Part shown: piece after piece, positions 1,312 to 23,425 of the stretch
Layout of the letters: each line of letters starts with the position of its first letter
Numbering within the stretch: position 1 is the first letter of the stretch
Source: a virus
DNA: 23,425 bases
Reading direction: 5' to 3' (one strand)
IMG/VR virus record: IMGVR_UViG_3300021963_004309
Coordinates: 1 to 23,425 of that record
Program-made: the position numbers and the translations under genes
The notes under the pieces: model-generated
What the model was told of the DNA's origin: nothing
The model's database searches: none
What the model saw: the letters and a program-made list of their open reading frames with translations, nothing else

Positions 1312-2177
1312 TGGCTCAGCCTAAGCCACTTCCTGCTATATTGACTGACCCGCTTTGGCTAACAGGCGGGATTAATGGTGCGTCTAAACTTCCGTACATG
1401 ACCAAAACGATTGGTCCTGTGTCAAGCGTTAGTTTGCCATCGAATTCTGTTCAGACATTTAGCAAGGTAGAGACTACGGACCAGAAAAGAAACAAGGATT
1501 ACCATGTTGGAGTTGGCAATCCGTATTTCATTGATTTTGCCAATATTGCGACTCCAGAAAGAACTGCTCGTCTTGGCAGAAAGATGTTGGATTTCGCTGA
1601 ATATAAGGCCAGAGACTGGATGGATAACATTCCAACAAACCTTGTATCTAACGCAGTAAAGGGAGAGATTAATCCGTTTAACGCTACAAGTTTTTTTGCA
1701 CTTGGTTCCGAAGCAGTAAAAGCAGCAGTTGGTGGTAGAATGACAGGTAATCTTGCCGCAGGACTTGCTGGAAAAGCAGGTGGTTCAATAATTGCAGGTA
1801 CTGCTGTCGGTGCTATAATAAACCCAACTACGCTTAAAGGTTCTACTGTTGACGAGAATCAATGGAGATTGGACTTGTACGCTGAACAACAGCGTGAACA
1901 TATGGCTAGAGTCAAAATGATTGACGAAGAATATGGCAAGAAGATGAAGGGTAAGTATGCTGGAATCGAGATGTTGATGGAAACACCGATATGGAAGCGT
2001 GATACATCCCCTCAGTTGACACCAGAAGAACGAAAGATGCAGAACTACGAAGAGATAATTGCCTCAAGATACAGAAAACTTGAAACCGCTTCTAGGGAGC
2101 GAGCAAAATTGGAAAACGGATTTTACAACGACAAGGGCGAGTTCATGTCGGCACATTTCATACGAAACTCTCAGTGA
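1311..2177 (+). CDS. Hypothetical protein with glycine-rich hydrophobic segment
   Basis: This encodes 288 residues with no family recognised. Residues about 133-170 form a Gly/Ala-rich hydrophobic stretch with GxxxG-type spacing (AGLAGKAGGSIIAGTAVGAI), like a glycine zipper or transmembrane hairpin. Residues about 185-268 are charged and helical, probably coiled-coil. The N-terminus is Pro/Ser-rich without a signal peptide. A similar Gly-rich stretch recurs in the 371-residue and giant proteins at the other end of the operon, so this may be a virion component that touches membranes, although it sits immediately before the large terminase. The start is TAATG-coupled to the basic peptide; the stop overlaps the terminase GTG start by 4 bases (GTGA). 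Confidence 0.85.
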   Translation: MAQPKPLPAILTDPLWLTGGINGASKLPYMTKTIGPVSSVSLPSNSVQTFSKVETTDQKRNKDYHVGVGNPYFIDFANIATPERTARLGRKMLDFAEYKARDWMDNIPTNLVSNAVKGEINPFNATSFFALGSEAVKAAVGGRMTGNLAAGLAGKAGGSIIAGTAVGAIINPTTLKGSTVDENQWRLDLYAEQQREHMARVKMIDEEYGKKMKGKYAGIEMLMETPIWKRDTSPQLTPEERKMQNYEEIIASRYRKLETASRERAKLENGFYNDKGEFMSAHFIRNSQ

Positions 2178-3823: not shown

Positions 3824-5971
3824 ATGGACAAGCAATCTTACAATACTAAGCGTGATAAACTGGCTATGGCTAGTGACGCTCCTGATATTCAGGAATTGAT
3901 AAGCGAACTAAGACGCTCTCTTTACAATGGTGGCAACACTGTTGAACTTACGGACAGTGACGACCTTCGTTACTGCAAGTGGGCTGGGCAGACCAATGAT
4001 GGCAAGAAGCATTCCGAACACAGACGAGAAGGCGATGTCGCTTTGCCGTTTGAAGGTGCTTCAGATGTCCGCATCAGGCTCATTGATAGGGTTATCAACG
4101 AGCAGGTCGCCTTGTGGGTCAATTCTTGGAAGAACTCCAAGTTGAGAGTGTCTGGATTGACTGTTGACGATGGTGCTAACGCTGAGGCGATGACGACATT
4201 GCTTACGCACATCATCTCCTGCCGTCTGCGGATGGAAGCAAGACGAGAAGGTGAACTTTGGGCTCAGTATGCCCAGCAGTATGGATGGTCTGCCATGCAT
4301 ATCACATGGGAACAGCAGATTGGCCTTCAGCCCCAAAAGGTGACGCTTGCGGAGATTGACGAGATGGCAATGATGCTTATGCAGGAAGAGCCTGACAATC
4401 CTGCCACAAGAATTCCTGAGGCTATCCGTAGCGGAGAGGACGACCAGATGGTCGTGTCCATGTTCCAGTCGGTAATGCCGAATGTCCCTGAAGAACAGGT
4501 TGCCAAGTTGATTAAGGACTTGCGTGAAACTGGCGAGGCTACTATTTTCGTTGAATCCATCATCAAGAATCTTCCCCGCCTTACGGCTTTGAAGCCTTAT
4601 GATGAAATCTGTTTCCCGCCTGAGACCATTGAACTCCAGAAAGCCAGAGCAGTGTTCAGGCGTGTGTACATGACCGAGGTGGAACTACGCTCCTTTGTCA
4701 AATCCGAGAACTGGAACCAAGACGCTCTTGAGGAGGCCATTAACACCTCTGGGAACATCAGTTGGTATACTGACCCCAACATCATCCCTGTAGCGACTCT
4801 GATGGGCAACCAGCAGTACAGAAACCGCAATCTCATTGAAGTCATCTACGCCTACACCCGCCAGATAGACGAGTCTGGAAATCTTTGCATGTATTATACA
4901 GTATTTTGCCCGAATGCCAAGGGCGACCTGTATCTCAAACACGACAAACTTGCTTATGCCCACAATAAGTATCCATTCGTGGAACTGAGACGAGAGCATA
5001 TTAGAAAGTCAATAATGGAATCCAGAGGCGTTCCTGAACTGCTTGTTACCGAGCAAGCGGAACTGAAGGCTCAGCATGATGCTGTCAGAGACAGAACCGC
5101 CATTGAAACGATGCCTCCAATCCTGATTAAGAAGAGAATTCAGGGCATAAACAGAATTGGACCTGCATTGCAGTTACCTGTTACGAGTCCAGATGACTAT
5201 AGATTCATGGACCCGCCCAGAGGCTCTCCTAACCTTGCGGAACTGATTATCGCACAGGTTGAGAAGAATGTTGCCAATTACTTTGGCCTTACGCATGAAA
5301 TGGTTCCTCCGCAGAAGACCCAGATGCTTCAGCAGATGTCCGTTGACGGATGGCTCAACAGTTGGGCAGAGGTTTATACGCAACTCTTGCAATTGTCCCT
5401 CCAATACATGCCAGCCGAGGAAATCCAGAGAATCACAGGCGTTGCGGTCAACCTTGGGATTACCGATATCTCCAGTCAGTTTGACTTTGAGGTCAAGTTT
5501 GATGTTCGTGACTTGGACAATGAATATGTCATGAAGAAGTTGCAGTCCATCAGCCAATTCGTGCTTCCGCTCGATGTTGGTGGTGTTGTTGACAGAAACA
5601 AGTTGGTTGCCAAGTTGGTGGAAGCCATTTCGCCTGATGTTGCAAAGGAAATCATCCTAGACCAGCAGAGTGCCTCCCAGAAGATGTACAACGATGTCCA
5701 GAACGATATTGTCAAAATGCTTATGGGCATTGAGCCTCAGTATGTCGAAAACGACCCTGCGGCTGGAACAAAGATGCAATACTTGCAGGATATCGCTGGA
5801 AAGTCCCCGAAGGTTCAGCAAATGGCTCAAGGAGACCAAATGACAGCCGCCCTGATGCAGAATTACCAAAAGAACCTCCAGATGTCAATTATGCAACAGC
5901 AGAACAAGCAAATTGGACGAACAGGTGTTACTCCTGTGTCTGATGAAATGCAACAGGAGGCCCAGCAGTAA
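3824..5971 (+). CDS. Portal protein, P22-like
   Basis: This forms the dodecameric ring at one vertex of the head, through which DNA enters and leaves and to which terminase and tail adaptor dock. The 715 residues match the size of the P22-type portal (about 725) and exceed most siphovirus portals. Family-like features are the N-terminal segment with GEGDVALPFEG-like context (here REGDVALPFEGASDVRIRLID, about residues 68-88), the wing region with long acidic helices, and the stem/clip region around PPRGSPNLAELI and FGLTHEMVPPQKTQM (about 463-505). The last 60 residues are Gln/Met-rich and helical, as in the P22 barrel. The start lies 30 bases after terL in an A-rich leader without a Shine-Dalgarno sequence. 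The family call is from pattern recognition of the sequence, not a search. Confidence 0.93.
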   Translation: MDKQSYNTKRDKLAMASDAPDIQELISELRRSLYNGGNTVELTDSDDLRYCKWAGQTNDGKKHSEHRREGDVALPFEGASDVRIRLIDRVINEQVALWVNSWKNSKLRVSGLTVDDGANAEAMTTLLTHIISCRLRMEARREGELWAQYAQQYGWSAMHITWEQQIGLQPQKVTLAEIDEMAMMLMQEEPDNPATRIPEAIRSGEDDQMVVSMFQSVMPNVPEEQVAKLIKDLRETGEATIFVESIIKNLPRLTALKPYDEICFPPETIELQKARAVFRRVYMTEVELRSFVKSENWNQDALEEAINTSGNISWYTDPNIIPVATLMGNQQYRNRNLIEVIYAYTRQIDESGNLCMYYTVFCPNAKGDLYLKHDKLAYAHNKYPFVELRREHIRKSIMESRGVPELLVTEQAELKAQHDAVRDRTAIETMPPILIKKRIQGINRIGPALQLPVTSPDDYRFMDPPRGSPNLAELIIAQVEKNVANYFGLTHEMVPPQKTQMLQQMSVDGWLNSWAEVYTQLLQLSLQYMPAEEIQRITGVAVNLGITDISSQFDFEVKFDVRDLDNEYVMKKLQSISQFVLPLDVGGVVDRNKLVAKLVEAISPDVAKEIILDQQSASQKMYNDVQNDIVKMLMGIEPQYVENDPAAGTKMQYLQDIAGKSPKVQQMAQGDQMTAALMQNYQKNLQMSIMQQQNKQIGRTGVTPVSDEMQQEAQQ

Positions 5972-7333: not shown

Positions 7334-8419
7334 ATGGCAAAACTCACAGAAAGAGATTTTAACTCCGCTCCCTACATGGGTAAGCGTGAAGACCTCGCAG
7401 ACCTTATCGCCCTCGTTGACGCTAAGGATACTCCGTTCACATCTATGGCCCCGAAGGGCTCCAAGCCTGGAAATACAGTGTTCCGCTGGCAGGTTGACTC
7501 CCTTCCCGCCGCCGCCGCTTCGCAGACTGGCGTTGTCGATGGTACGGATGTTGACCCGAATGGTGCTACCATTCAGAACTTCGTTAAGGATGGTGCTACA
7601 CAGTACCGCTACGAATTGTCGAACCACATTCAGGAATTCAGAAAGTCTGTCCGTGTGTCCCCGCTTACGCTTGACATCGCTGTCATCGCTGGCGTGAAGG
7701 ACGAACTGGCTAACAATGTCGCTAAGGGCATCACGATGCTTAAGCGTGACATGGAAAAGACATTCTGCTCCAACAATCTTCCGAAGGCTGACGATGGCTC
7801 CACGCAGGGCTACGCTACCAGAGGTCTCGATTCTTGGACTCGCCCTGTCCTTCCGACTGGTGGTGTCTTCGCTAACGACAACTATCTGGCTGTCCCTACT
7901 GCTTTCCGCACAAAGGCCGCTTCGGTTGCTGGTAACGCTACAGCCATTGCGGAATCTACGACTGCTTCCTCGACCCTCACTGAAATCGTTGTTCAGGACA
8001 TCCTGACCTCCATCTACAGTGAAACTGGTCAGTTCCGCTCCTACGATGGTCTCGTTGGTCCGAACCTCAAGAGAGCCTTCACTAACCTCGTCTACACGAA
8101 TCGTACTGACACCTCGGCTTCTCAGGCCGCTATCAGAACCTTCAACAGAGACGCTTCGGCTTCCTCCTATATCTCCTCGATTGATGTCTTTGAAGGCGAT
8201 TTCGGTCAGATTCGTCTGCACCCCTCGCTCTTCCTGAAGAACAACTTCTGCGGTTATGTCCTCCCGATGGAGCATGTCGAAATCCGCTATGGCGGCTCGG
8301 TTGCTGGCGTGAAGGAACTGACTGACAATGGTGGTGGTCCTGCCCGCATGATTAACGCTATTGCGTCCGTCTGCGTGAAGAATCCGCTGGCCTTCGGTAA
8401 GTTCGACTATGTTTCGTAA
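7334..8419 (+). CDS. Major capsid protein (SU10/DUF5309-like, HK97 fold)
   Basis: This is the main shell subunit. The 361 residues carry the N-terminal pattern typical of the DUF5309/SU10 capsid group: DLADLIALVDAKDTPFTSM (about 20-38), then KGSKPGNTVFRWQVDSL. The spine-helix region (DIAVIAGVKDELANNVAKGITMLKRDMEKTF, about 113-143) and a late segment (GDFGQIRLHPSLFL) fit the HK97 fold. Codon use is the most biased in the window, favouring C- and G-ending codons and avoiding TTA, CTA and TCA, as expected for the most highly translated gene. The start is preceded by TACTACTATG without a Shine-Dalgarno sequence; the same ten bases mark the first gene of the window. Confidence 0.95.
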   Translation: MAKLTERDFNSAPYMGKREDLADLIALVDAKDTPFTSMAPKGSKPGNTVFRWQVDSLPAAAASQTGVVDGTDVDPNGATIQNFVKDGATQYRYELSNHIQEFRKSVRVSPLTLDIAVIAGVKDELANNVAKGITMLKRDMEKTFCSNNLPKADDGSTQGYATRGLDSWTRPVLPTGGVFANDNYLAVPTAFRTKAASVAGNATAIAESTTASSTLTEIVVQDILTSIYSETGQFRSYDGLVGPNLKRAFTNLVYTNRTDTSASQAAIRTFNRDASASSYISSIDVFEGDFGQIRLHPSLFLKNNFCGYVLPMEHVEIRYGGSVAGVKELTDNGGGPARMINAIASVCVKNPLAFGKFDYVS

Positions 8420-10397: not shown

Positions 10398-10529
10398 ATG
10401 TTCGCATTTATTCTATCTCTAACTGTTATTGCACTTGCTTTTGCTGGTGGATTTTACGCTGGCGTAAAGAACGCCAAGTCCTCCAAGGTCGAAAAGGCCG
10501 TTGAAGCATTTAAAACACTCAAAGATTAA
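10398..10529 (+). CDS. 43-residue single-pass membrane protein
   Basis: This encodes MFAFILSLTVIALAFAGGFYAG followed by a charged helix (KNAKSSKVEKAVEAFKTLKD). Residues 2-21 are one hydrophobic segment with a Gly-Gly break, and no signal cleavage site is obvious. Its stop shares a base with the next start (TAATG), which supports it as a real gene despite its size. Small one-pass proteins in late operons can be holins, pinholins or spanin-like parts, but no lysin gene is in the window, so lysis is only one possibility; a minor virion membrane peptide is another. Confidence 0.7.
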   Translation: MFAFILSLTVIALAFAGGFYAGVKNAKSSKVEKAVEAFKTLKD

Positions 10530-12475
10530 TGGCTAACCTTCAGCGTCAATACGATGGTGATGCTGGATTCATAGGCATAGATACTAGAGGAAACCCAGCA
10601 ACACTTAAACAAGGAGTCCTTCAGGATGGTAACAACATTCGGCTGGACCTCCAATCGTTGCAGGTAAGAAAGGGTCTACAAAGAACCCTAGATGACGGCT
10701 ATGTAAGTACTGTAGGTACAGTTGTTGGTAGCGGTATTTATGTAGATAGTGTTTCTGGCAAGCAATATGTTGCACTCGTTGGATACAATTCTGGTGCTAA
10801 TAGGTTTTACTTATTTGACATTATCACTGGAAGTTTTTTCCTGAACATAGCAATGCCAACCAATAGGCCAATTGCTACTGGTCCTGTTCAACTGCTACAG
10901 TCTGTTAATAAAATGTACATCCTCAGAGGTGAGGCTACTAGGTACATAACTGGCAATGGCTCTACAGGACAACAGGCAACAGTTGGTGGGGCTCCTCATA
11001 CAGTAATAACTGTAACAACAAGCACTCCTCATGGGCTTAATGTTGGTGATGAGTTTATTATTGAAACAGTACACGCCCAATGGAATGGACCTACTAGTGA
11101 AAACAACTTTGTCGTAGGAAGCGTACCATCATCTACATCGTTTACTTATACACTAACGGCAGGTCACAGTGGTGCGGCAAGTGCTTATGTAATACAGGTA
11201 GCAAAGCCTGTTCTTGTGTTTAATGGAACAACAGTTTCCGTTGTAAGACAGGGTATTATTGACGGAACTGTGTTTGGTGGTACATCTCCTACAGCATGCG
11301 ACTTCCCGCCAACATCTACGGCAGTATACCACAAGAATAGAATTTACTGCAAGTACAGTAAGGACGAAATAGCCGTATCTGACTACCTGACTGATGTAAC
11401 TGGCAACTGGCAGTTTGACCTTACAATTCAGGCTTTAACCATAAATCTAGGAGACGAGCAGGAAATCACAGGGTTCCACCCATGGACTAGGGATACGATG
11501 CTTGTTTTTAAGACTAACAGCATTTATGAGGCTAAATTTGCAGACAACACATCCACGCCAGACATAGTTCTTGCTGAGTCTTTTGTTCGTGCATTGACAT
11601 ATGACATTGGGTGTGTTGCTAAGAATAGCATAGCAAATGTGTCTGGCGTTGTGTTCTTCATGTCACAGCGTGGTATCTACAAGTTAGAGCCTCAATTGGA
11701 TGTGGCACTGCTTGCCAACACTGCCCCAATGTCCCTTCCCATTCAGAAGTACATTGAAAGGCTGAACTACGACTATGTTAAGAACAGTGCTGGAATCGTG
11801 TGGAATGGCAGATACTACCTTGCCGTACCTTCGGAAGATAGCACCTTTAATAACAATGTCTTGGTGTATAACTTAACAAACCAGATGTGGGAGTCGGTAG
11901 ACACATTCCCAGCGTCAATCAGAATTGACAATATAATCGTAGCAAAGACGGACATTAGTAATGTCAACAATAACATGCTTTACTGCTCGTCTGTTAACGG
12001 CATATATATTGCAGAACAGGCAGAGGTAGATGAATTCGGCTCCTTGTCTACATCTCCAACTTTTGAGAATTTTCCTTATATTGCTGGACCACCTGAAATC
12101 CCAGAAGGTATCCCTCTGGAGTTTTCTCTTGAAACAGCAGTATACAACTCGTCCATAATTAGAGGGTACGCAAAGACAAGAAGATATATATTCAACTCAT
12201 TGCAGGATAAGCGTTTCGTCTCGGTTAATACAGATATTAAGTTTGATGACATTGGTGCTATCAAAACTGACATTGTGACTTACAACCCAGATACAAGATT
12301 AACTCTTGACACTGTGTCGTCCCAGTCCGTTGGAGACAACACACGAAGATTTCCAATAAGAAAGATTGCAGTTGGCTGTGAATTAGATTTTGCTTCCCTT
12401 AGCGGTAGGCCAATCATCAGAAGCGTATCAATAGAAGCCCAAGCAATCGGTAGAAATATTATAAATAAGCAATAA
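10529..12475 (+). CDS. Tail nozzle / stabilisation protein with inserted beta-domain
   Basis: This is the probable tail nozzle (the role of P22 gp10 or T7 gp12), which closes the DNA channel below the adaptor. The 648 residues are beta-rich with propeller-like repeats: GNNIRLDLQSLQVRKG (about 34-49), YHKNRIYCKYSKDEIAVSDYLTD, FHPWTRDTMLVFKTNSIYEA, GVVFFMSQRGIYKLE, and GRYYLAVPSEDSTFNNNVLVYNLTNQMWES. These NGRYYLAxP...NNxxLVYN...W patterns are typical of phage stabilisation or nozzle proteins. Residues about 157-222 (TVITVTTSTPHGLNVGDEFII to TSFTYTLTAGHSG) form a separate small beta-domain, like the FCCH-type inserts seen in many phage tail proteins. The start is TAATG-coupled to the membrane peptide. 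Confidence 0.87.
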   Translation: MANLQRQYDGDAGFIGIDTRGNPATLKQGVLQDGNNIRLDLQSLQVRKGLQRTLDDGYVSTVGTVVGSGIYVDSVSGKQYVALVGYNSGANRFYLFDIITGSFFLNIAMPTNRPIATGPVQLLQSVNKMYILRGEATRYITGNGSTGQQATVGGAPHTVITVTTSTPHGLNVGDEFIIETVHAQWNGPTSENNFVVGSVPSSTSFTYTLTAGHSGAASAYVIQVAKPVLVFNGTTVSVVRQGIIDGTVFGGTSPTACDFPPTSTAVYHKNRIYCKYSKDEIAVSDYLTDVTGNWQFDLTIQALTINLGDEQEITGFHPWTRDTMLVFKTNSIYEAKFADNTSTPDIVLAESFVRALTYDIGCVAKNSIANVSGVVFFMSQRGIYKLEPQLDVALLANTAPMSLPIQKYIERLNYDYVKNSAGIVWNGRYYLAVPSEDSTFNNNVLVYNLTNQMWESVDTFPASIRIDNIIVAKTDISNVNNNMLYCSSVNGIYIAEQAEVDEFGSLSTSPTFENFPYIAGPPEIPEGIPLEFSLETAVYNSSIIRGYAKTRRYIFNSLQDKRFVSVNTDIKFDDIGAIKTDIVTYNPDTRLTLDTVSSQSVGDNTRRFPIRKIAVGCELDFASLSGRPIIRSVSIEAQAIGRNIINKQ

Positions 12476-12476
12476 A

Positions 12477-13490
12477 ATGGCACAAATCAACAAAGGCTAT
12501 AACTACACAACAAGCGGGGCTAACTCTTATGTTACCGCTGGCAACCTAAATCAGCATGTGGCATTGGCTACGCTTGCTGGTGGTGCTATATCCGAACAAA
12601 CCGCTAATTCAGCGTCTAATGATACTGATGTAATCCTTATTGGCACTGGGACTGGATTGTCTACTGCCATATGGAAACAGACAAAGGCTCAGTTTACTAA
12701 CACAATAAACTCTGCAAGCATAAGCGTCAATGCACTGTCTGTACAGGACGCAGAACTTGACAGCATTACTATAAACGGCTCTTACGATGAAGATGTTTAT
12801 TTCAATGTAGGAAATGCGGCTATATACAACTCAAGCACGACCAGTCCTTATGTGATGTTTGGCTATGACAACATTACTCATGCACTTCCTGTTGGTCATA
12901 CTGGCAATGTGTTTAGGCATCACGGCATTTCGACATTGTTCACAGACCCTTATAATCCTGTTGACCTGAATGTTGCTGGCACAGGTCATACTGTGACTAT
13001 TCAAGGTGATTTAAATGTTACAAAGGATTTAAATGTCACACGAAATGTAAGTCAAGGCGGGGTTGTTTTGGATTTGTTTAAGCGTTATGGTGCTAAGAAT
13101 GGAGTTCTGTTTGCTGGTGGAATTACCGAACTTTACAAAACGCAAGACCTTGACATCCCTGCTGATGAAACTTGGGTGTTTTCTTTTGATTTTAAGTTTA
13201 AATCCAACCAACTAGGTACTGCAACAATAACTGCATATCTTGAAAAGGCTACATATTCAGATGTAAGTGTAGCAACTTGGGATGTTATTATATACGGACT
13301 ACAGCATCCATATGTGTATCTTACATCTAACCTTGCTCTTACAAGAACAAGCCTTGCTTCTCTTTCAAAAAAGTTAAAGTTCGTGGTATCTGGACTTTCC
13401 ACATACAATACTGCTACTGAACATATGTACTCTATTTCTTATGTCCGCATTAAAACGGCACAACTAACAACTGATAATTCTATACTCTAA
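12477..13490 (+). CDS. Tail fibre / receptor-binding protein
   Basis: This encodes 337 residues. The N-terminal 100 residues contain helical and strand patches with Ala/Thr/Ser-rich sequence and an ALSVQDAELDSITINGS segment. The middle (about 120-195) is beta-structured and ends in tandem short repeats (GDLNVTKDLNVTRNV) like the triple-beta-helix shafts of fibres. The last 100 residues (WVFSFDFKFKSN through YSISYVRIKT) look like a compact beta-sandwich tip. It resembles a receptor-binding protein more than an enzyme; no catalytic motif is visible. It begins one base after the nozzle stop, and its own stop overlaps the next start (TAATG). Confidence 0.8.
   Translation: MAQINKGYNYTTSGANSYVTAGNLNQHVALATLAGGAISEQTANSASNDTDVILIGTGTGLSTAIWKQTKAQFTNTINSASISVNALSVQDAELDSITINGSYDEDVYFNVGNAAIYNSSTTSPYVMFGYDNITHALPVGHTGNVFRHHGISTLFTDPYNPVDLNVAGTGHTVTIQGDLNVTKDLNVTRNVSQGGVVLDLFKRYGAKNGVLFAGGITELYKTQDLDIPADETWVFSFDFKFKSNQLGTATITAYLEKATYSDVSVATWDVIIYGLQHPYVYLTSNLALTRTSLASLSKKLKFVVSGLSTYNTATEHMYSISYVRIKTAQLTTDNSIL
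13008..13040 (+). repeat. Tandem 15-base repeat in the fibre shaft
   Basis: GATTTAAATGTTACA (13008-13022) recurs as GATTTAAATGTCACA (13026-13040), one base different and 18 bases apart, so the reading frame is kept. It encodes DLNVT twice (DLNVTKDLNVT) and continues with a weaker third turn (RNVSQ). It fits a repeating strand in a trimeric fibre shaft. Confidence 0.7.
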
Positions 13491-14605
13491 TGGCTGAATA
13501 TGATTCTGTAGGTGGTGGTGCTTCTGGTGGAGCAACTGGGGCAATGGCTGGTGCTGTCGGCGGTTACGCTGTAGGTGCTAAAATAGGTGCTGTTGGTGGA
13601 CCTGTTGGCATGGCTATTGGAGCAGTTCTTGGTGGTCTTTTTGGCTCCAAGAAAACCAAGGTTCCTAGACCTCCTACCTATGGTCAGTTGATGAATAGAA
13701 ACCTTGACGCACAAGAGAGCATTCAGGATAGATTGCTTACCCTTGAAGGAAAGTATAGAGGACAATACCAAGGGTTGCAGGAGCGTACATTGCAGTCCCA
13801 ACTCTATGGTGGCAATGGCAACCAAGGATACATCAACATGCTCAATGAGTCCAATGAAGCCCTACAAGGCGTTCAGGCTAGGGCTGGGGCTGGTTACATG
13901 AATACGCTTGGCGGGCTTGCTGGACAGGCCAGAAACATGCTCCAAAGCGACCAAGCAAGAGCAATGCAACAGTCCTTGATGTATCAGGCTCAAAATGACT
14001 TGGCAATGGGTTCTTCGCTTAATGCCGACGAACAGCGTCAGGCTTTCCAAAGTGCCAATGCTGGCATGGCAATGCGAGGTCTTGGAGGTAGACAGGGTGT
14101 AGCCGCAGGTGTCCTATCCAACTACGGAATGGGGCAAAATAGGCTCAACCAGCGTAGGCAGTTTGCTGGCGGTATTCTCAGTCAGGATTCTGCTCTTCAG
14201 TCTGCGGCTCTTCAGATGGGTGCTGGTGCTATGAATATGTATAATGCTGGTGGCACATTCATGGGTCAGGCTAACGCCATGCTTGGACAGTATCAGCCTC
14301 AAATCTTCCAGCCTGAATCCCAGATGGGGGCTCAAGCACAAGGAATGAAGTACCAGCATGAAATGGGCGTTGCCAGAAGCAGTATGCAACAGCAACAACA
14401 GTTGCTTAGTAGCATGGGCCAGTTCGGTTCATTCATGATTCAAAACCCTAATCTGTGGCAAACACCTCCCATTGTTGCTAATACCAATCAATACGCTAAT
14501 CCTATTGGCCCGACAATGAGTGGAGGGTTTGATGCTGGAGGTCAAGGCCCAGCATTTAGCAGTCCATATTTTGGTGGTGGCACTGCATACGGAAATTTTA
14601 GATAA
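13490..14605 (+). CDS. Glycine-rich internal virion (ejection) protein
   Basis: This encodes 371 residues and is likely a pore- or channel-forming protein stored in the head and ejected with DNA, comparable in role to T7 gp14 or P22 gp7/gp20. The N-terminus (residues 8-52) is almost pure Gly/Ala with hydrophobic residues and GxxxG spacing, ending at a basic patch (FGSKKTKVPRPP, 51-62): a glycine-zipper membrane hairpin. The remainder is Gln/Met/Asn/Gly-rich and helical (QAESIQDRLLTLEGKY-like heptads, then many AQARNMLQSDQARAMQQ-type segments). There is no signal peptide. It stands next to two further probable internal proteins, an arrangement typical of ejection-protein triplets. The ATG is coupled to the preceding stop (TAATG). 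Confidence 0.8.
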   Translation: MAEYDSVGGGASGGATGAMAGAVGGYAVGAKIGAVGGPVGMAIGAVLGGLFGSKKTKVPRPPTYGQLMNRNLDAQESIQDRLLTLEGKYRGQYQGLQERTLQSQLYGGNGNQGYINMLNESNEALQGVQARAGAGYMNTLGGLAGQARNMLQSDQARAMQQSLMYQAQNDLAMGSSLNADEQRQAFQSANAGMAMRGLGGRQGVAAGVLSNYGMGQNRLNQRRQFAGGILSQDSALQSAALQMGAGAMNMYNAGGTFMGQANAMLGQYQPQIFQPESQMGAQAQGMKYQHEMGVARSSMQQQQQLLSSMGQFGSFMIQNPNLWQTPPIVANTNQYANPIGPTMSGGFDAGGQGPAFSSPYFGGGTAYGNFR

Positions 14606-14611
14606 TAATTT

Positions 14612-16894
14612 ATGGCAATATTTGGACAATATCAAGGCGGTGATGCCTTCAATGTGGCTGGCAATATGGACGCTGTGCTTAAACAGCAAGCGGCTACTAA
14701 CCAGTCTATGTTGGATGCTGTATCCAAGTTCAATCAAGCGAGAGAGGAGATGACCACACTGCAACAGCAGACTGGGGCTATCATGTCTCAGTATGGTGTT
14801 GACGAGAAAGGGAAGCCCGATGATACGGCTCCTAAGTATGTTCACGACCTGTTCAAGAATGTTAACAAGGAAGGTGGCATTGCCAATCTTTCCAGAACCC
14901 AGTTGGTTGCTGGACTTAAGGCTTACGAAACAGGAACTCAGGTTGACGCTCAAAGGCAGAACCAAGCGTTTAATGCGGAGAAACTCAGACAGGCTAGACT
15001 TACAAATGACATCACGGAGATGCAAATGCAAGCCGCTCTTAAGGCTGAAAAGGAAGCACAGAGAATAAGAGAGGCATATAATGACCCTGAACTGAAGAAA
15101 GAAATTGAAGCCATTGCAAAGGAAAAGTTAGAAAATGTAAAAGAAGTAACAAAGGAAATAAAAGTAAAAGGTGAAAAGATTAAGTTTACGGCAGAAGAGA
15201 TTTCTCCGTACCTAGATAGGCTGAACAAAGCAAAAGCAGAAGGCGACAAGAATGCAGAAGCCGAAGCATATGATGAAATCGGAAAACTGCTTCATGGCAA
15301 AACAAGCAAAGGCCGTGAAACAAACATAAACATATTAGACCAACTTGATGAAAATGGGATGTTGATTACCGAAGAGGTTAAAAACCCAGATTATATCCCA
15401 TATCGTTCCGTAAGAGATGCGGCTAAACTTACTGAGCGTAAGGTTGGTCAAAACATAAATCCAACAATACCTGAAGCACTGCTTAGAGGCATCGCTGATG
15501 AGCAACTTAAAAAGTACAATCTTGCAACCGCTGGAAGAGAAGAAAACGAACAGGCAAGGCTTGCTCTTGAGATTCAACAAAACTCTTTGGTTACTGGTGG
15601 CAGACCTGTTGATAATACAAGGGTTGGAGATGTCTTAGGTTTACTTCCAAAGTCTAATGCACCCAAGAAAACATTCGTCTGGAACAATCCAGAAGCACAA
15701 GCATATCAAGTAAAGATTGACAACATTGACGAACAGATTGCCAATCTCAAGGATTCTATAGCGGTAAACAAGGGAGGTAATACTCAGCAATTTTATGCTG
15801 GTCTTGGAGGAATGTCTATACCAAGAGGAGATGAAAGAGCCAACACAAAGGCTGTTCTTTCCGCAACTCTTCAAATAAAGCAACTTGAGCAACAGAAGAA
15901 AGCACTTGACAGCAAACTTCAGTCTGTTGAAGATAAGACAAGAATTACATCTGTAAAAGCCGCTCAATCGGTTGCTTCTTATTCTGGCGGGGAAGTCCAA
16001 GCGTCTGAAGACACTTGGAAGCCTGTAATTGAAACTGTTCAAAAGAAATATCAGCGTACTCTTGACGAGCAAACAAACGATGAGTACTTGATAATGAAGA
16101 ACTACTTTGAGAAAACTGGTGGAGTCCCTCCTACATTTACAAAAGAAGCGTTTTACGCATCCAAGGGCATCCAGCGTCCTATGGTAGTTCAGGCTGGTGG
16201 TGGATATCTATACGCACAAGGCCCAGACGGAAAGGGCCACTTCCTTAAGGATGAGTCTGCTCAATCTAGCCAAATGAGCATTACCGACCAAGAGAAGATG
16301 TGGAAGGCTGGTGAATTCTCCAAGGCCAGAAACCTCAACGGCCTTACTGTCAATGGTTATACATTCAGAGGTGAGGTTCGTGTTGGGGATATTGACCAAG
16401 CAAATAAGGTTAAGGATGGCGTTTTCAAGACAACAAGAGCCTTGAGTGCCTTGGACTCGCTTATTGACATCGCAGACAACAAGGGATTGTTTGAAAAACT
16501 GTTGCCTACAGAAGTTTCTGGTATTGCTCAGGCTTTGGCTAATACAGTCCAAGCGGCTAATAGAACAGAAGTTGGTGGTTCTGGTGCATGGTCTAATCAG
16601 GACCAAGCAAACATTGACAAGATTATTAGAGACCCTTCCAAGGGGCATAACGCTATCTTTACTTCTCAGACTGTAGCCTCTCTCAAGGCTTATAGAGCCA
16701 GACTTGAACAATCTATGGTTGACAGCGGGAGCATTTATGGTTTTGCTTTTGAAAGAAATGGGGGTCAGGGAAGCATGTCTTCCCAAGTGGGTCAGTTCCG
16801 AATTCAGTATGCCACTGGCATGGCTAAGTTTGGAGACCACGCCCAAGCCCTTGAATACGCAAAACAATCCCTGAACTTTGATGCCAACGAATAA
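14612..16894 (+). CDS. Internal virion protein, long coiled-coil
   Basis: This encodes 760 residues. The function is inferred from position, and no enzyme motif is seen. It is helical overall: residues 108-185 form a long charged coiled-coil (AEKLRQARLTNDITEMQMQA and following heptads), residues about 362-450 contain a second one (IKQLEQQKKALDSKLQSVED), and the C-terminal 170 residues (ALSALDSLIDIADNKGLFEKLL, then GAWSNQDQANIDKIIRDPSKG) look globular. Such proteins assemble around the portal inside the head and help build the trans-envelope channel. From about residue 160 to 500 codons shift to A-ending (AAA, GTA, ATA, GCA), unlike both ends, suggesting a replaced or recently acquired middle. 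Its last 14 bases overlap the next gene's start. Confidence 0.8.
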   Translation: MAIFGQYQGGDAFNVAGNMDAVLKQQAATNQSMLDAVSKFNQAREEMTTLQQQTGAIMSQYGVDEKGKPDDTAPKYVHDLFKNVNKEGGIANLSRTQLVAGLKAYETGTQVDAQRQNQAFNAEKLRQARLTNDITEMQMQAALKAEKEAQRIREAYNDPELKKEIEAIAKEKLENVKEVTKEIKVKGEKIKFTAEEISPYLDRLNKAKAEGDKNAEAEAYDEIGKLLHGKTSKGRETNINILDQLDENGMLITEEVKNPDYIPYRSVRDAAKLTERKVGQNINPTIPEALLRGIADEQLKKYNLATAGREENEQARLALEIQQNSLVTGGRPVDNTRVGDVLGLLPKSNAPKKTFVWNNPEAQAYQVKIDNIDEQIANLKDSIAVNKGGNTQQFYAGLGGMSIPRGDERANTKAVLSATLQIKQLEQQKKALDSKLQSVEDKTRITSVKAAQSVASYSGGEVQASEDTWKPVIETVQKKYQRTLDEQTNDEYLIMKNYFEKTGGVPPTFTKEAFYASKGIQRPMVVQAGGGYLYAQGPDGKGHFLKDESAQSSQMSITDQEKMWKAGEFSKARNLNGLTVNGYTFRGEVRVGDIDQANKVKDGVFKTTRALSALDSLIDIADNKGLFEKLLPTEVSGIAQALANTVQAANRTEVGGSGAWSNQDQANIDKIIRDPSKGHNAIFTSQTVASLKAYRARLEQSMVDSGSIYGFAFERNGGQGSMSSQVGQFRIQYATGMAKFGDHAQALEYAKQSLNFDANE

Positions 16895-19800
16895 CGACCC
16901 GCTTTTCCAGACAGGTAAGCAATTTCTAAAGACACAAGCAAGCCAAGCAACACCTGCTGGCATGCCTATCGGAGAAGCCCCTGTTCAACAGGAAGGCGGT
17001 TCTAGTTATGCTGATATGGCTAACGGACAAGGCAATCACGCTTGGTCTCAATACGCAAATGTCGCTGATGTTAAGGGGCCGTCTTCGCTCAAGGCTCAGC
17101 AGATAACAAGCCTCAGCGATGAGCAGTTGATGGAGGCAATCAAGGCTCCGCTTAGCGGAGAAGAGGTTGCCATGAAGATGAGTGCCATCCAAGAGTATGG
17201 AGGCGAGATTGATGCGTCTACCATCTCCAAGGAGGAGTTTATCGCATATGATGCATGGCGTGAAAAACAGAACTTCAACTTCATGGGTGCTGTCGCTGAA
17301 GGTGCATTGATGGCTGTTAAAGATATCGGCAAGGGTGTTTATTCTGCTGGTACTGACTGGAAGAAACTTGGCTTGGCTGTTGGACTTTCCGCTGTGTCTA
17401 CTCCTGTAGTTGGGTTTGGCGTTGCGTATGGCTCTTCCATACTTGAAGGTGCGGCTAGAGGAACAAGAGATTTGGGAGGTCTTGCTGTTATGGCGGCTAA
17501 CCATCCTGGGTCTCCTCTTTATAGAATGTTCGTTAATCCCACGAATGACATGGACAAGAAGTATGAAGACTTCTTGGACCTTGCTCGTTGGAATTCTCAG
17601 TCGGAAAAGATTCTTGCTGGCAAGAGCAATGCCTTGATGCCAGATAAGGAAGTGTACGAGAAACTTTTCGGCAAGGCGTTTGGAAATCAAGTGGATGAAT
17701 TCATTGGCGTGAACAAGGAGTTGGCTACAGCCGCTTCCTACTTCCTAGACCCAACGACGCTGTTGATGTTTGCTCCTGCTGGTCTTGGAGAAAAGATATT
17801 CGGCAAAGCCGCCGCCGCCGCCATCAAGTCTGGAGAGGCTGGAAATACACTTGGACATGCGATGTCCGCTAAGTCCGCAAGAAATGCATTCAAGGCAAGT
17901 TGGCTCAACTCGCTTGGTGAAAACCTCAGAAAGTTCTCCGATGTAACGACACAGCCTATTGATGCTATGTTCGATAACATAACAAGAAATGCTGAGGCAG
18001 TTACTGGTGCTAAGACATCTATTTCCCATGGAGGAACTGTTCGTGTAACAAGAACTGCGGCTGGTCATGGAGGCACTAGAGGTCCGACTTCTGTTGTGCA
18101 TGCTGGTATGGGTGCGTTGGGTATGTATTCGCTGTTCCACATTCCCTATGCATTGCCGATTACATCCGTGTATGCTGGACTAAAGGGCGTTGGCCTCATT
18201 GGTGATACCATACTTGATATAGGCAGAAGGGGCGTTCAGAACAGTTCCACAGTCATGGGTAAGGCTATAAAGGCATCGCTTCCGATTACGATGTACATGC
18301 AAGACCTAGCAACCACCACAATCCATGGTGGCGTTTATGGTGGCGTTATCGGATATGCCGCAAGCGGTCAAGAAGGTGCGGCTGGGGGTATTGGAACAGG
18401 TGCGGCTCTTGGTGCTGTAGGTCACAATGTCGGTTATGCTTATGGCACATTCAGCGGTCAGTTTGCAAGAGAGGCTTTGTATAAGGAATTTGACACACAC
18501 TTTAACACACTTAAGGAAAAGGGTCATATCCTCAAACACGACAGGGTTCGTGAGTTTGTTGAAAGAATTCGTTCAGACCATGGAGACGAAGAGGCAATTC
18601 GTGCTATCTCGCATGTGATGGCTCTTGAGAAGAGCAAGAATACCGCTGTGGCTTACATGGGTTACAGCGACTTCCTTGGTGCTTTGGCTAATGACCCCAA
18701 GATGTGGGAATCTGTCATTGGAGAGAACGGACCTGAAAGAAGACTTTCTCCTACTGGAGAGATGTTGCACAGAGCCATGAAGGGTGTTGTTGAAATGGAT
18801 GAGGGAGGAAACATCGTTAGAGATGAAAACGGAGACCCCATTCTGCTAGGAAGGCGTGAGCGTGTTGAGTCGCTTAGAGTTACAAAAGAAGACAAGGCAC
18901 TTATTGGACCGATGCCTGAACAAGAGGGAGGCATAGTTAATCCCAATCAAGCGGCTTGGAATGGGCTGTTCCTTGACGGACGAGGAAATAGTAGCCCTAT
19001 TAAAATTTTTACAGACGGAGAAACAGGAAAGAATCACATCATAATCAACACAGACATGTTGGTTACTCAGCGTGATAAGTACGGCAATCCAATCTACGAT
19101 ACAGCGTTCCGTGAAGGCAGAAGAGCCAACATGGACAAATCTCAAGACATCAGGGTTTCAGAGACAGTGGAAGGCCCAAGAGTCAGAAGACAGGTGCTAG
19201 CAGAAGGAGTTGATGAATACGGAATACCTCTCAAGTCCAAGAAGGAGCGTACAGTTGCAGTGCCTGACGAAAACCTGATTGGTCCTATGCCCGCTGAAAC
19301 AAGGATTGTCACTAGAAAGACCTCTGGAGATATCGGTCCTGTTGCTCCTGTTGAGGTGATTACTGGCAGAAGAATGGTTCAGGCCAAGACCGCTCCGATT
19401 GGAGAGTTGTGGCATGCAATGAATAGTGCCTACAGAAAGATTAACCATGGGCAGGACATTACGAATGCAGTCCGTGATTGGCTGATTGGTTCTGGAGGAA
19501 AGGCTGGAAGAGCGTTCTCCGACAGAAAGCAGACTGTCAAGTTCATGCATGAAGTCTACAGAGCCATTGGCGGTGACAATCGTGACACAGGGTACAATGG
19601 TGCTTGGATGAAGGCCATCAACGAGTTTGAACAGACTGGCGAAATCAAGTCCCCAGAAGTTCAGAGAGCGTTCAGGGATTTCATTGAGGAACTTGGCGAA
19701 GCCATGTTTATCGGATGGGAAAGTGGAAAGCCGTTTGACTACATCTACAAGGGCGGTGACTTGGGCTTTGCCAGAAACCTTGTCGAAAGCGTCAAGGATA

Positions 19801-22800
19801 CATTCTTCAACCGCTCGCTTCGTGAGGCTACCAACCTTGGTGCTGACATCAGAAGCAAGGACTTCTTTATCAATTGGTTCAAGGAAGCAAAGGACGGACG
19901 CAAGTTCAGATTCGACCCTATCCTTGAAAGCACATTCAATGACCTTATCCGTTGCTACAGGGATAATGAGATGAAGGATGCTGGTCGTAAGAGGATTGAC
20001 CTCACGACTCTCAACTCCGCTCAACTCAAGAGACAAGCAGAAATATATGGATTTGAAGACAGGATTGAAATGGATGCCAATGGCGAATGGAGAGTAAAGT
20101 CCGACGAAAAGTACCATGCTGAACAGTTTGTCAAGGCTCAGGCGATGGGAATGGAGATGGCTCATGCATTCCAGACCAATCCTGACCTCTTCAATGGAGT
20201 CGATGTTCAGATTGTCACCAATGGTGATGCTAGACTTGGCACTGTAGAGGCTAACTTTGCGGCACTGGACGCTTCCAGCCGTGACCCTAACTCTTCCACA
20301 GCCGACACGCTATCTCAGCGTAGAGGGGCTTTCCTGTTCCAGAACGCAGACTTTGCAGATGTCGGCATAGGTATTGACGAAATGCTGTCGGCACAGGCTG
20401 AGCAGGTTTACACCAGTGGGGTTTATGCACCACGCACAAAGGGTAGTTTTGGTGCTAGAGGTAGACCCAGAACTACGCCTACTGGCAAACTTCAGGCTGA
20501 CTTGCTTGAAGCGATGAAGACAGGCAAGAAGTTGATTATCAGAGGCGTTCCTAATGAGAAGTTGTTTGCCATCATCCAGAAGTATGTTCCAAAGAGCGTA
20601 TCCGATAACATCAGAACACTTGCTCCTCTTATCGTTGATGGTGGCATTTCCGCTGATAATGTGCTTAGGGGCCAGTATCATGGCTTTACTCAAGTCGATA
20701 AGGATGGCGTAAAGCGTAGCAGAAAGACTGGAGATGCGTTCAACGCAAGAGAAGTGACATTCGTTCCTTATGACTTGGAACTAAGTTGGACGCTTGACAA
20801 CATCAAGAACCCTCAAGTCAACTACGAGCGGGCTCACTTGGCTTACAATGTTAAGTCCATGGATGTCGATGCGTTCAATAGACGAATTCATATCCTTTGG
20901 AACCAGAGCCCAGAACTACAAGGTCTCTATGGAGATGTCCAACAGTTCATAGACCACGCCTACAGAACAATTGACGAGTACAGCGGTAGCAAGGAAATCC
21001 CTGCCGTGGAGTTCTTTGGTGAAGGTGAGACCGCAAGACAAAGGCGTAAGTATGTCGTTGCGGCTATCGGTGCTTCCCCAAACATTGCACACAAGTTTGC
21101 GTACAGCCTTGCTGAAGCAGAATGGCATTCCTATCAGCATCACGACAGGACTGCCGAGCAAAACCACCCTTGGCACAGACTGAGACTTGACGGACTTACT
21201 GGCCTCCAATCTATTGATGGTGAAAGAACGAGAATGCGTGTCAACGAAACGCAATACTATAGAGCAATGGTTCCTACTCCTACAACGGAAACTGGAGCAA
21301 TGTGGGTAGATAGTTCTGGAAATCCTGCAAAATATCAACCTTCCGATGCACTTAGACCTAGCAAAATGTATAATACAATTGGAGAGGAAGTAACTTCTCT
21401 TCAGCAAAACATTGAAAGACTTGATAGGGAAATCGCTATAAAAGACAAGTTTGGAAGGCGTGGAGGCAATCCTTCTTACAGTTGGTATAAGGAGCAGAAA
21501 AGGAATGCACAAAACAGACTTGATGAAATAAATAATGCTAGGTCGTCTGGCGAAGGAAACAATCAGGCCATTTTAACTCAACCTTCAGATTCTACTGGAG
21601 AGTCCAATATGACTCCTGATTTGAGTAAGATTCCAAATATGAGTCCTCAGAAACTTGGTCGTAGATACGACATGAACTCTGAGAAGTGGAACTCTGGATT
21701 TATCGGTAGAGCCGCAGAAGAGAATCCGACTTGGGTTGATAGAGGAACTCCTGTTGGAAAGATTGAAACCCTTAAGGATAAAATGGTTGAGTTCAAGATA
21801 GGCGGTCACAAGTCCAATGTAATAACACTTGAGATATTGACAAAGAAGGGTGACATGGTTTCTTTTGTTTACGCAGAACAATCTAAGGATGGCAAGAGAT
21901 TGACGCATGTTGCAGTGCATACTGCTCCTCACTGGAGACAAAGAGGATATGGAGACATTGCTTACTCTGAGTTAATTGAAAGAGCCAGAGCCTTGGACTT
22001 TAAGGCTTTTGATGGAGAGATTATCAATTCTAAGGCACTTCCCATGCGTATGCGTGATAAGCGTTTTGGAGTTGGAGGTTCCTTTATTGTTGGACCAGAC
22101 TGGGAAACTATAGTCGATGTGGCTACACAGGCTGAAGTTGTCAGAAGACTTGACAACTCCATTGACCTTGGAGCGGAACACGAAGGAGTTCGTGTCAGTT
22201 CGCCTATTATTCCTTCTGCATTCTACCAGACAGCCGAGATTGGCGATGGCCCTATTCCTATCAATGTGGAGACGATGAAGGACTTTAACATGTCTACTTC
22301 GGACAAGCCTTATAATGCCGATGCGGTTTCTAAGCGTTTGAACGACCCGCTCTCCCTTGTCAAGTCTCTTAACAAAGAAAGAGCATTTAAGCCGTCTAAG
22401 TTCAAGGCATTGTTCCAGCCCGCTGATACATTTGGGGCTAAGTCTGAAGCCGAGGCCCAGTTCCTTAGAAGTAACTACAAGTGGGCAAACGAAGAAGCAA
22501 AAGACATATTTGAGTCTGAAGCCTTAAAGCGTTTTGTAAATCAGTTCCGTGTTGGACAGGAACCTGTCACTGTAGTCAAGTGGGCGTTGGAGGAATGGAA
22601 GCGTGTGCATGGAGATGTTGATGCGTATAACGCTCAGTTTGTTACTGGAAGACCTGTTGTTGTTATTGGTACACATGGCACTCCTAGTGCAGAATTGGTA
22701 AAGGTAATGAAGTTTGATTCTGATAAATTGGGTTCCAATACTACCGCTCAGACAGCAAAACGAGGCACATTCCACGCAGGTACACAAGAAACATCGTCAA

Positions 22801-23425
22801 GATATGGAGTGATGCATTCTGAAATAACCGACAAGAGAGCGAAACTTTCAGAAGCAAGAAAGTTGCTTGAGGACAATTCCATTTCCTCTTCAGAATTAAT
22901 ACAAAGGGTGTCAGATGTCAGCGACTTCTTGGACTCAAACGGATGGAGCGATGAAAATGAAAAAAGAAGCAGAAGTTACTCAAAGTCAGTTTTTCAAAAA
23001 AATGTTGAATACTTGATTGATGGCAAATGGGCTCAGGCAAATATGCCAGATGTAGACAAAAGTTACACTCCGCAAAAAGAGCGTCAAGCAAGAACTCAGC
23101 AATTCTTGGATTATACTAATGGATTGCTATATGATGCACTTAAGTTTGAAGAGGCGTTTGAGGAAAACAACAGACAACAAGTAAGGTCTGTTATTGGTTT
23201 CCAAAATCCGCTTGTTGTTGACCTTAAAGATACCGCTTGGCAAGCAACCAGCAGAGCAGAGTTGATGGATTCTGCCAAGGAAAAAGGACATGACGGATTG
23301 ATAGTCCTTAACACATATGATGGATTGTTTTTTGGTATGATGCCTCATGCTGACAATCTTTATGTTGTCCTTAAGGGTGGAGAAAACAGAAACATTGCCA
23401 CAATTGACTCTTCCCTTACAGGCAA
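16881..23425 (+). CDS. Giant polyvalent-type protein with GNAT-like and ADP-ribosyltransferase-like domains (partial, 3' end beyond window)
   Basis: This is an uninterrupted frame of at least 2181 residues starting MPTNNDPLFQTG, overlapping the previous gene by 14 bases and still open at the window edge. Hydrophobic or Gly-rich segments lie at residues 164-190, 411-445 and 483-522, suggesting membrane contact. Residues 530-1600 are mostly helical with charged linkers and contain an imperfect repeat ending LIGPMP (674-679 and 799-804). Residues about 1635-1746 look like a GNAT acetyltransferase: HVAVHTAPHWRQRGYGDIAY carries the R/QxxGxG acetyl-CoA motif (1686-1691). From about 1925 the sequence follows the ADP-ribosyltransferase pattern of polyvalent proteins: GTHGTP (H1932), KFDSDKLGSNT, RGTFHAGTQETSSRYG (Y1975), QNPLVVD (2109) and GHDGLIVLN (2136). 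It is probably packaged and injected with the DNA; the enzyme activities are inferred from motifs only. Confidence 0.9.
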   Translation, partial: MPTNNDPLFQTGKQFLKTQASQATPAGMPIGEAPVQQEGGSSYADMANGQGNHAWSQYANVADVKGPSSLKAQQITSLSDEQLMEAIKAPLSGEEVAMKMSAIQEYGGEIDASTISKEEFIAYDAWREKQNFNFMGAVAEGALMAVKDIGKGVYSAGTDWKKLGLAVGLSAVSTPVVGFGVAYGSSILEGAARGTRDLGGLAVMAANHPGSPLYRMFVNPTNDMDKKYEDFLDLARWNSQSEKILAGKSNALMPDKEVYEKLFGKAFGNQVDEFIGVNKELATAASYFLDPTTLLMFAPAGLGEKIFGKAAAAAIKSGEAGNTLGHAMSAKSARNAFKASWLNSLGENLRKFSDVTTQPIDAMFDNITRNAEAVTGAKTSISHGGTVRVTRTAAGHGGTRGPTSVVHAGMGALGMYSLFHIPYALPITSVYAGLKGVGLIGDTILDIGRRGVQNSSTVMGKAIKASLPITMYMQDLATTTIHGGVYGGVIGYAASGQEGAAGGIGTGAALGAVGHNVGYAYGTFSGQFAREALYKEFDTHFNTLKEKGHILKHDRVREFVERIRSDHGDEEAIRAISHVMALEKSKNTAVAYMGYSDFLGALANDPKMWESVIGENGPERRLSPTGEMLHRAMKGVVEMDEGGNIVRDENGDPILLGRRERVESLRVTKEDKALIGPMPEQEGGIVNPNQAAWNGLFLDGRGNSSPIKIFTDGETGKNHIIINTDMLVTQRDKYGNPIYDTAFREGRRANMDKSQDIRVSETVEGPRVRRQVLAEGVDEYGIPLKSKKERTVAVPDENLIGPMPAETRIVTRKTSGDIGPVAPVEVITGRRMVQAKTAPIGELWHAMNSAYRKINHGQDITNAVRDWLIGSGGKAGRAFSDRKQTVKFMHEVYRAIGGDNRDTGYNGAWMKAINEFEQTGEIKSPEVQRAFRDFIEELGEAMFIGWESGKPFDYIYKGGDLGFARNLVESVKDTFFNRSLREATNLGADIRSKDFFINWFKEAKDGRKFRFDPILESTFNDLIRCYRDNEMKDAGRKRIDLTTLNSAQLKRQAEIYGFEDRIEMDANGEWRVKSDEKYHAEQFVKAQAMGMEMAHAFQTNPDLFNGVDVQIVTNGDARLGTVEANFAALDASSRDPNSSTADTLSQRRGAFLFQNADFADVGIGIDEMLSAQAEQVYTSGVYAPRTKGSFGARGRPRTTPTGKLQADLLEAMKTGKKLIIRGVPNEKLFAIIQKYVPKSVSDNIRTLAPLIVDGGISADNVLRGQYHGFTQVDKDGVKRSRKTGDAFNAREVTFVPYDLELSWTLDNIKNPQVNYERAHLAYNVKSMDVDAFNRRIHILWNQSPELQGLYGDVQQFIDHAYRTIDEYSGSKEIPAVEFFGEGETARQRRKYVVAAIGASPNIAHKFAYSLAEAEWHSYQHHDRTAEQNHPWHRLRLDGLTGLQSIDGERTRMRVNETQYYRAMVPTPTTETGAMWVDSSGNPAKYQPSDALRPSKMYNTIGEEVTSLQQNIERLDREIAIKDKFGRRGGNPSYSWYKEQKRNAQNRLDEINNARSSGEGNNQAILTQPSDSTGESNMTPDLSKIPNMSPQKLGRRYDMNSEKWNSGFIGRAAEENPTWVDRGTPVGKIETLKDKMVEFKIGGHKSNVITLEILTKKGDMVSFVYAEQSKDGKRLTHVAVHTAPHWRQRGYGDIAYSELIERARALDFKAFDGEIINSKALPMRMRDKRFGVGGSFIVGPDWETIVDVATQAEVVRRLDNSIDLGAEHEGVRVSSPIIPSAFYQTAEIGDGPIPINVETMKDFNMSTSDKPYNADAVSKRLNDPLSLVKSLNKERAFKPSKFKALFQPADTFGAKSEAEAQFLRSNYKWANEEAKDIFESEALKRFVNQFRVGQEPVTVVKWALEEWKRVHGDVDAYNAQFVTGRPVVVIGTHGTPSAELVKVMKFDSDKLGSNTTAQTAKRGTFHAGTQETSSRYGVMHSEITDKRAKLSEARKLLEDNSISSSELIQRVSDVSDFLDSNGWSDENEKRSRSYSKSVFQKNVEYLIDGKWAQANMPDVDKSYTPQKERQARTQQFLDYTNGLLYDALKFEEAFEENNRQQVRSVIGFQNPLVVDLKDTAWQATSRAELMDSAKEKGHDGLIVLNTYDGLFFGMMPHADNLYVVLKGGENRNIATIDSSLTG
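18822..19292 (+). repeat. Imperfect internal repeat in the giant protein
   Basis: A block reading DENGDPILLGRRER then LIGPMP (codons 18822-18917) is echoed by DEYGIPLKSKKER then LIGPMP (19212-19292). A third DKYGNPIYD lies between them. Similar GEMLHRAM and GELWHAMN segments flank the blocks. The repeat is visible at protein level only and may reflect an old duplication of a linker or small domain. Confidence 0.5.

Follow-up and report, generated by a model that had tools for sequence, protein, structure and literature searches.

Known phage proteins that act in or on the host include N4 vRNAP, which is packaged unprocessed (PMC12633501, PMC5512222) and ejected, and T4 Alt, which acts on the host early (PMC12633501, PMC5512222, PMC9503650). 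Polyvalent proteins, as described by Iyer et al. 2017 (PMC5512222), unite many unrelated enzyme domains in a single polypeptide. Their listed components include zincin peptidase, ART and GNAT domains, and their zincins combine an HEXXH motif with a glutamate from the next helix (PMC5512222). T7 gp16-like proteins comprise about 600-1,340 aa (PMC8954989), and the MuF polymorphic toxins of temperate phages join a constant head-associated part to a variable effector part (PMC12226406).

Here we analyse a viral contig record in its entirety (23,425 bases), termed the window, and outline how its last and longest frame compares with these systems. This frame probably represents the N-terminal half of a giant polyvalent-type protein of the ejection cluster of a podovirus-like phage, in which a constant core is combined with swappable enzymes.

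The frame (16881..23423; plus strand, as are the run of virion genes and the parts of the giant given below) encodes the first 2,181 residues of the protein, begins with an ATG at 16881 and runs stop-free through 2,181 codons to position 23423, 2 nt short of the contig end, where it is still open. The original prediction, a frame of at least 2181 codons, is borne out by the one close relative that a scan of viral contigs retrieved, L002 in G001 (38.8 kb contig; 84% identical). Its gene is complete; the product, P0002, comprises 4,316 aa without internal stops (L002:10001-22951) and takes up 33% of the contig. The end of the gene, which had been expected beyond position 23425, is thus located in this relative, and approximately 2,135 residues are absent from the window. 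Further family contigs, gathered by scans with the capsid, the portal and parts of the giant, yielded two more complete homologues (4,357 and 4,391 aa) and open homologues of about 1.5-4.4 kaa in over 40 other contigs; every close relative is a contig from a metagenome, and kinship among them makes these counts non-independent. The open frames of the family span 793 to 4,391 aa, and internal stops are absent. A tblastn search of 50,697 phage records with the window giant gave no match, nor were relatives found in the contigs of 84,980 bacterial and archaeal genomes. The dN/dS ratio is approximately 0.10 between the window and G001 giants and 0.09-0.18 in each block of about 250 codons of the 4,357/4,391-aa pair; it reaches 0.56 in the last 190 residues of the window frame compared with G001, where a variable insert of the ART is located and gaps are frequent. 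The giant gene is under purifying selection throughout, and the open homologues and the low dN/dS rule out chance as well as a read-through artefact as the source of the frame. A separate case is the 88,287-base contig G036 (matches at 10437 and 55893), which contains two different giants with frames of 3,513 and 2,590 codons, 45 kb apart, and perhaps represents two phage genomes joined in assembly.

The giant closes a run of virion genes in the order terminase, portal, scaffold-position gene, capsid, adaptor-position genes, several structural genes, gp14-position gene, gp15-position gene and giant. This run includes the terminase large subunit (2174..3793; PF03237), the portal protein (3824..5971; assigned from its place in the gene order and from homologous annotated portals), the major capsid protein (7334..8419; phrog_1328, E 1.7e-40), a virion structural protein of 648 aa (10529..12475; phrog_3287, E 1.8e-15), an ejection-cluster gene of 371 aa at the T7 gp14 position (13490..14605; homologue in 24 of 25 contigs) and, directly before the giant, an ejection-cluster gene of 760 aa assigned by position to T7 gp15 (14612..16894), for which no family match was found. 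Accordingly, the two preceding products can be regarded as internal virion-like proteins by position, as previously proposed, and not by family match. The original prediction also put the giant last in the ejection cluster. This placement, at which T7 has gene 16, is conserved across the contigs mapped. The claimed translational overlap is likewise upheld: the giant starts 14 nt inside the preceding ORF (14612-16894), an overlap kept in G001 and G029 (17 nt if counted from an in-frame TTG), and the two genes overlap by 1 nt in G014, G015, G016 and G028. In G001 the giant is directly followed by a holin-like gene, the match of which lies below the Pfam cut-off. Elsewhere in the window, a 162-aa ORF (9902-10390) with the fibre-like motif FPDGTTQTT and no Pfam match is perhaps a tail fibre piece. 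In the complete genome of phage C75C1 (L006, OQ984151.1), portal (27% identity) and capsid are related to those of the family, and the late cluster includes proteins of 2,769 aa and 1,343 aa, which are at most candidate homologues of the giants.

Residues 1-1475 of the giant form a conserved block, termed the core. Its N-terminal part (residues 1-660; 16881..18860), defined by an alignment of 14 homologues and marked by an E-G-x-x-x-G-T motif, is present in 72 viral contigs. The "N-terminal membrane-like segments" noted earlier are reduced to one clear hydrophobic stretch (residues 163-183; 17367..17429; Kyte-Doolittle maximum 1.75), accompanied by a glycine-rich region conserved in homologues (residues 405-540; 18093..18500; GGxxGGxxGxxxxGxEGxxxGxGxG). 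The first 680 residues, which include this stretch, are followed by an I-N-x-D motif, an insert in the window clade and a helix carrying the sequence GELWH. This helix belongs to a zincin-like region (residues 690-1064; 18948..20072), which aligns to the HELFH/HEMLH motifs of G004, G002 and G003; GELWH (residues 841-845; 19401-19415) represents a degenerate active-site motif. The remaining core (residues 1065-1475; 20073..21305) contains no known domain and gave no PDB or Foldseek match. The middle of the protein (residues 530-1600), previously thought to hold further domains, thus proves to be mostly conserved core with a zincin-like region and no stack of enzymes.

Among the aligned sequences that cover the zincin motif (G014/L230 is unaligned across it), the catalytic glutamate is invariant and the second histidine nearly so. 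In the window clade and in aligned members of at least 3.5 kaa, E, G, S or A stands in place of the first histidine, and HELFH is intact in 20 of 20 further smaller relatives. A conserved pair of glutamates approximately 95 residues past the motif (residues 936-937; 19686-19691) may supply the third zinc ligand. The EExxH form also occurs in G010 (EEVTH) and G018 (EEIAH), and since these belong to a different branch of the portal tree, either the histidine was lost repeatedly, or the EExxH form is itself functional. Because the presumed protease of the window clade is devoid of the first zinc ligand, release of its cargo by self-cleavage appears doubtful.

Downstream of the core, the window encodes a GNAT acetyltransferase domain (residues 1621-1740; 21741..22100). 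While profile searches gave no direct family match for the window giant itself, hhalign relates this segment with 99.3% probability to the GNAT domains of G004, G002 and G022, of which those of G004 (43.5 bits) and G022 (27.4 bits) pass the PF00583 cut-off of 20.7. In a fold comparison, the GNAT segment of a structure model that is poor overall gave a best VIA-align Z of 7.7 (77 aligned at an rmsd of 2.2), and GNATs made up almost all of the top rows. Structure prediction, as suggested earlier, was informative for this fold, and the models were too poor to help beyond it: the AlphaFold model of residues 556-1485 has a mean pLDDT of 52 and gave nothing usable with Foldseek, that of P0002 1481-2610 has a mean pLDDT of 41, and PDB profile searches with the core, the cargo and the C-terminal half returned coincidental matches only. 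G004 (L218) harbours three tandem GNAT domains at residues 1958-2412, and G002 and G003 harbour two.

The GNAT is followed by a probable ADP-ribosyltransferase (ART) of the polyvalent type (residues 1895-2181). Its N-terminal half (residues 1895-1977; 22563..22811) is homologous to G004 1354-1416 (iE 5e-27), which lies inside a stretch (G004 1354-1506) that resembles PF18760 (19.1 bits over positions 10-114 of 140; cut-off 31.2); PF18760 has no hit in the window's own ART segment, and the assignment is based on this transitive homology via a below-cut-off match. The C-terminal half (residues 2093-2181; 23157..23423) lies past a fast-changing insert (residues 1978-2092; 22812-23156), the length and sequence of which vary widely among relatives. 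The distant short relative G022 shows the same order, a GNAT and then an ART-like stretch. The "enzyme-like C-terminus" of the original prediction therefore stands as regards the enzymes, with the GNAT backed by profile and fold and the ART by transitive homology; the end of the window is not the C-terminus of the protein.

Past the window, the G001 giant continues with a phrog_3170 domain, a phrog_2563-matching region and a long unmatched part; altogether, about 1,700 residues in its C-terminal half are without match. The highly conserved phrog_3170 domain (P0002 ~2111-2390; L002:16331-17170) looks like an enzyme. Similar domains are common to the giants of Mel-JY33, ctQRb9 and Pag-Yong1 and to gp205 of Rhodococcus phage E3, which is annotated as a "structural protein"; one of the giants of other phages that share this domain is annotated as a "large polyvalent protein". 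The motif VHDxFGH...GEENAWxxH...TRGQNSWxN is found in L008, L009, L010 and L011 as well, and the domain, for which there is no Pfam match, also occurs in a large number of mycobacteriophages (for instance, 107 in Ava3). Two public giants, XAI96407.1 of Mel-JY33 (L009) and UOF81042.1 of ctQRb9 (L010), are annotated as "lysin" or "crystallin beta/gamma motif" protein, labels that are probably misleading for polyvalent-type proteins.

The last 62 residues of the G001 giant constitute an end domain, which has a basic end and the pattern G-Y-x-I ... K-F-R-V-Y ... G-V ... A. When every ORF of 150 aa or more in 25 contigs was searched, its profile matched giants only. In nearly every giant with a complete 3' end, the end domain sits at the C-terminus or close to it, and it is absent from the truncated window frame; none was detected in G005, G012 or G024, the copy of G018 is weak, and G010 has an inner copy only. 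Smaller relatives (1.4-3.3 kaa) possess two copies bracketing the cargo, together with an intact protease motif (HELFH). Of 20 giants that had played no part in profile building, 19 carried precisely two copies, located at the core end and at the C-terminus, and the exception, G059, probably runs off its contig. The window clade and other members of at least 3.5 kaa have a single terminal copy and no HExxH at the zincin site. This pattern, two copies with HExxH (23 complete proteins) versus one copy without (about 29), stems from few lineages and includes near-duplicates, so that a Fisher value calculated for it does not represent a fair probability, and G010 (inner copy only) and G018 (weak terminal copy), with their EExxH motifs, fit it poorly. 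In the window clade, an unfiltered HMM search past residue 1475 found no remnant of an inner copy. In end-domain proteins, GNAT, ART, phrog_3170-like, LPD37 and DUF7178 domains are located between the core and the terminal copy, and minimal family members consist of core and end domain without cargo. Since the end domain is kept in these minimal members, it would more likely serve packaging or docking. A candidate cleavage signal, "FQPAD", which recurs at domain borders of G001, was rejected, as the pattern had been picked post hoc and looser versions were only about 2-3-fold enriched.

Comparison of 15 giants with two copies revealed that the core aligns fully at a median identity of 80%, whereas the median aligned share of the cargo is 17%. 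In smaller relatives, cores can be 93-98% identical while the cargos differ; the cores of G046 and G054 are 98% identical, and their cargo is mostly unrelated. Between G046 and G042, DNA coverage amounts to 97% in the upstream genes, 99% in the core and 100% downstream, but to 7% in the cargo. Conversely, G054 and G037 have cargo in common (77% covered at 94% identity), while the cores are only 76% identical. These mismatches between core and cargo identity indicate that transfer of cargo from one lineage to another is not tied to the core.

Taken together, we propose that the core (about 1,000-1,475 residues), at the position of T7 gp16, would be packaged and delivered with the DNA, and that the giant, as third ejection protein, would exit via the portal alongside the DNA. 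The glycine-rich and probably membrane-active core would engage the inner membrane, and the cargo might then enter the cytoplasm and modify host targets early in infection, comparable to N4 vRNAP and T4 Alt. The exchangeable cargo zone comprises the GNAT, the probable ART, the conserved phrog_3170 domain, the region of phrog_2563 type and the long unmatched part, and is closed by the 62-residue end domain, which would have a packaging or docking role. A more speculative scheme, which we put forward tentatively and do not favour, has the end domain marking the cargo borders for the zincin: a cut at the inner copy would free the cargo after delivery in two-copy relatives with HExxH, the window clade would have lost protease site and inner copy together and keep its cargo tethered, and cassettes would recombine in core and end domain, a counterpart of polymorphic toxins.

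Other accounts of the giant have to be weighed against packaging and delivery of a swappable cargo. With the holin-like gene directly downstream in G001, the giant lies where virion genes give way to lysis genes, as might be expected of a late, unpackaged protein of the infected cell, i.e., a multi-enzyme cytoplasmic protein or an effector acting at lysis. Such a protein is unlikely, however, since the start overlap or 1-nt coupling with the preceding gene and a family-wide core with a glycine-rich, membrane-type region fit an ejection protein, packaging is predicted for polyvalent proteins encoded in virion operons (PMC5512222), and E3 gp205, which has one cargo domain in common with the giants, is annotated as structural. 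If the giant were mainly structural, a tunnel or inner-membrane hub like T7 gp16 with downstream domains serving as degenerate mass or scaffold, the degenerate zincin motif of the window clade, the lost histidine of the ART-like THGT motif in G028 and the minimal members made of core and end domain would find an explanation. Yet a dN/dS of about 0.1 across the cargo and the swapping of cargo as a unit (GNAT, DUF7178, LPD-type modules) are not predicted for filler, and render this account quite improbable.

The size class (3.5 kaa), the third-ejection-protein position and the membrane-type N-terminal part (PMC12633501), as well as the approximately 1,700 residues without match in the C-terminal half of G001, would also suit a virion enzyme like N4 vRNAP, with an RNA polymerase or another nucleic-acid enzyme in the unmatched parts; as no polymerase family or PDB sequence match emerged for P0002 or the alignments, we consider this very improbable. 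Least credible is an origin of the differing cargos, and partly of the length of the window gene, from assembly chimeras. The family is known from metagenome contigs alone, and conserved cores are places where assemblers can misjoin; against this stand flanks that are homologous on both sides (G046/G042: 97% covered upstream, 100% downstream), frames that remain open, a common end domain terminating every two-copy protein and the recurrence of the same cargo in different samples (G054, G037, G060).

A constant launcher with a swappable load, if true, would provide a small phage with a way to equip the infected host cell with interchangeable enzymes. As up to a third of a genome of only about 36-46 kb is spent on one protein, the cargo must pay. 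The arrangement also yields a rule for finding injected phage enzymes, namely to look between the core end and the terminal domain, and near-identical cores with differing cargos constitute a natural experiment on cargo function. Moreover, the split between HExxH and EExxH/GExxH renders the proposed self-processing of polyvalent proteins testable.

Among the known systems, T7 gp16 resembles the giant in its position after the gp14- and gp15-position genes, a likeness of position only, and its C-terminal basic residues are important (PMC8954989); the ends of the giants are basic, too. The giants are larger than gp16-like proteins; Pfam and PDB searches at the sequence level gave no match to T7 gp16, N4 vRNAP or a transglycosylase domain. 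N4 vRNAP gp50, a putative functional analogue, is likewise a third ejection protein of about 3,500 aa with a membrane-type N-terminal and a large C-terminal part (PMC12633501, PMC5512222). The giant differs in bearing a GNAT and a probable ART, in cargo that is exchanged among relatives and in the lack of a detectable RNA polymerase domain in sequence searches of Pfam, PHROGs, NCBIfam and PDB. With MuF toxins the giants share the division into constant and variable parts. In contrast to these toxins, they carry several enzymes at once and a conserved domain after the cargo, and profile searches found no MuF domain in the window giant or P0002. The giants of Mel-JY33 (XAI96407.1), ctQRb9 (UOF81042.1) and Pag-Yong1 (UMO75972.1) are of similar size (2.8-4.0 kaa) and contain the phrog_3170-like domain, and in the late clusters of Mel-JY33 and ctQRb9 a "lysozyme" gene precedes the giant; yet they belong to other phage lineages and show no detectable homology to core or end domain. 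No description of the arrangement of constant core, exchangeable cargo and end domain was found in the open-licence papers searched.

The closest likeness is to polyvalent proteins (PMC5512222), which also combine unrelated enzyme domains in one chain encoded among virion genes. At least two unrelated enzymatic domains are predicted in the giant, the GNAT and the probable ART, with a further conserved domain in G001, and synteny places the gene among virion genes in the mapped contigs. The commonest, non-obligatory polyvalent domain, the HEXXH zincin, reads GELWH in the window, where the region is homologous to that left intact in smaller relatives. LPD37, LPD38 and DUF7178 exceed Pfam cut-offs in relatives, LPD37 and LPD38 being named for polyvalent proteins; polyvalent-specific profiles reach the cut-off in distant relatives only (LPD37/LPD38) and not in the window giant or P0002, a matter of profile coverage rather than of a strict class definition. 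What sets the giants apart is an ejection-type core, a defined cargo zone bracketed or closed by a small domain, and a size of up to 4,391 aa. The giant is predicted to work like a polyvalent protein, and it displays the main testable features of that class.
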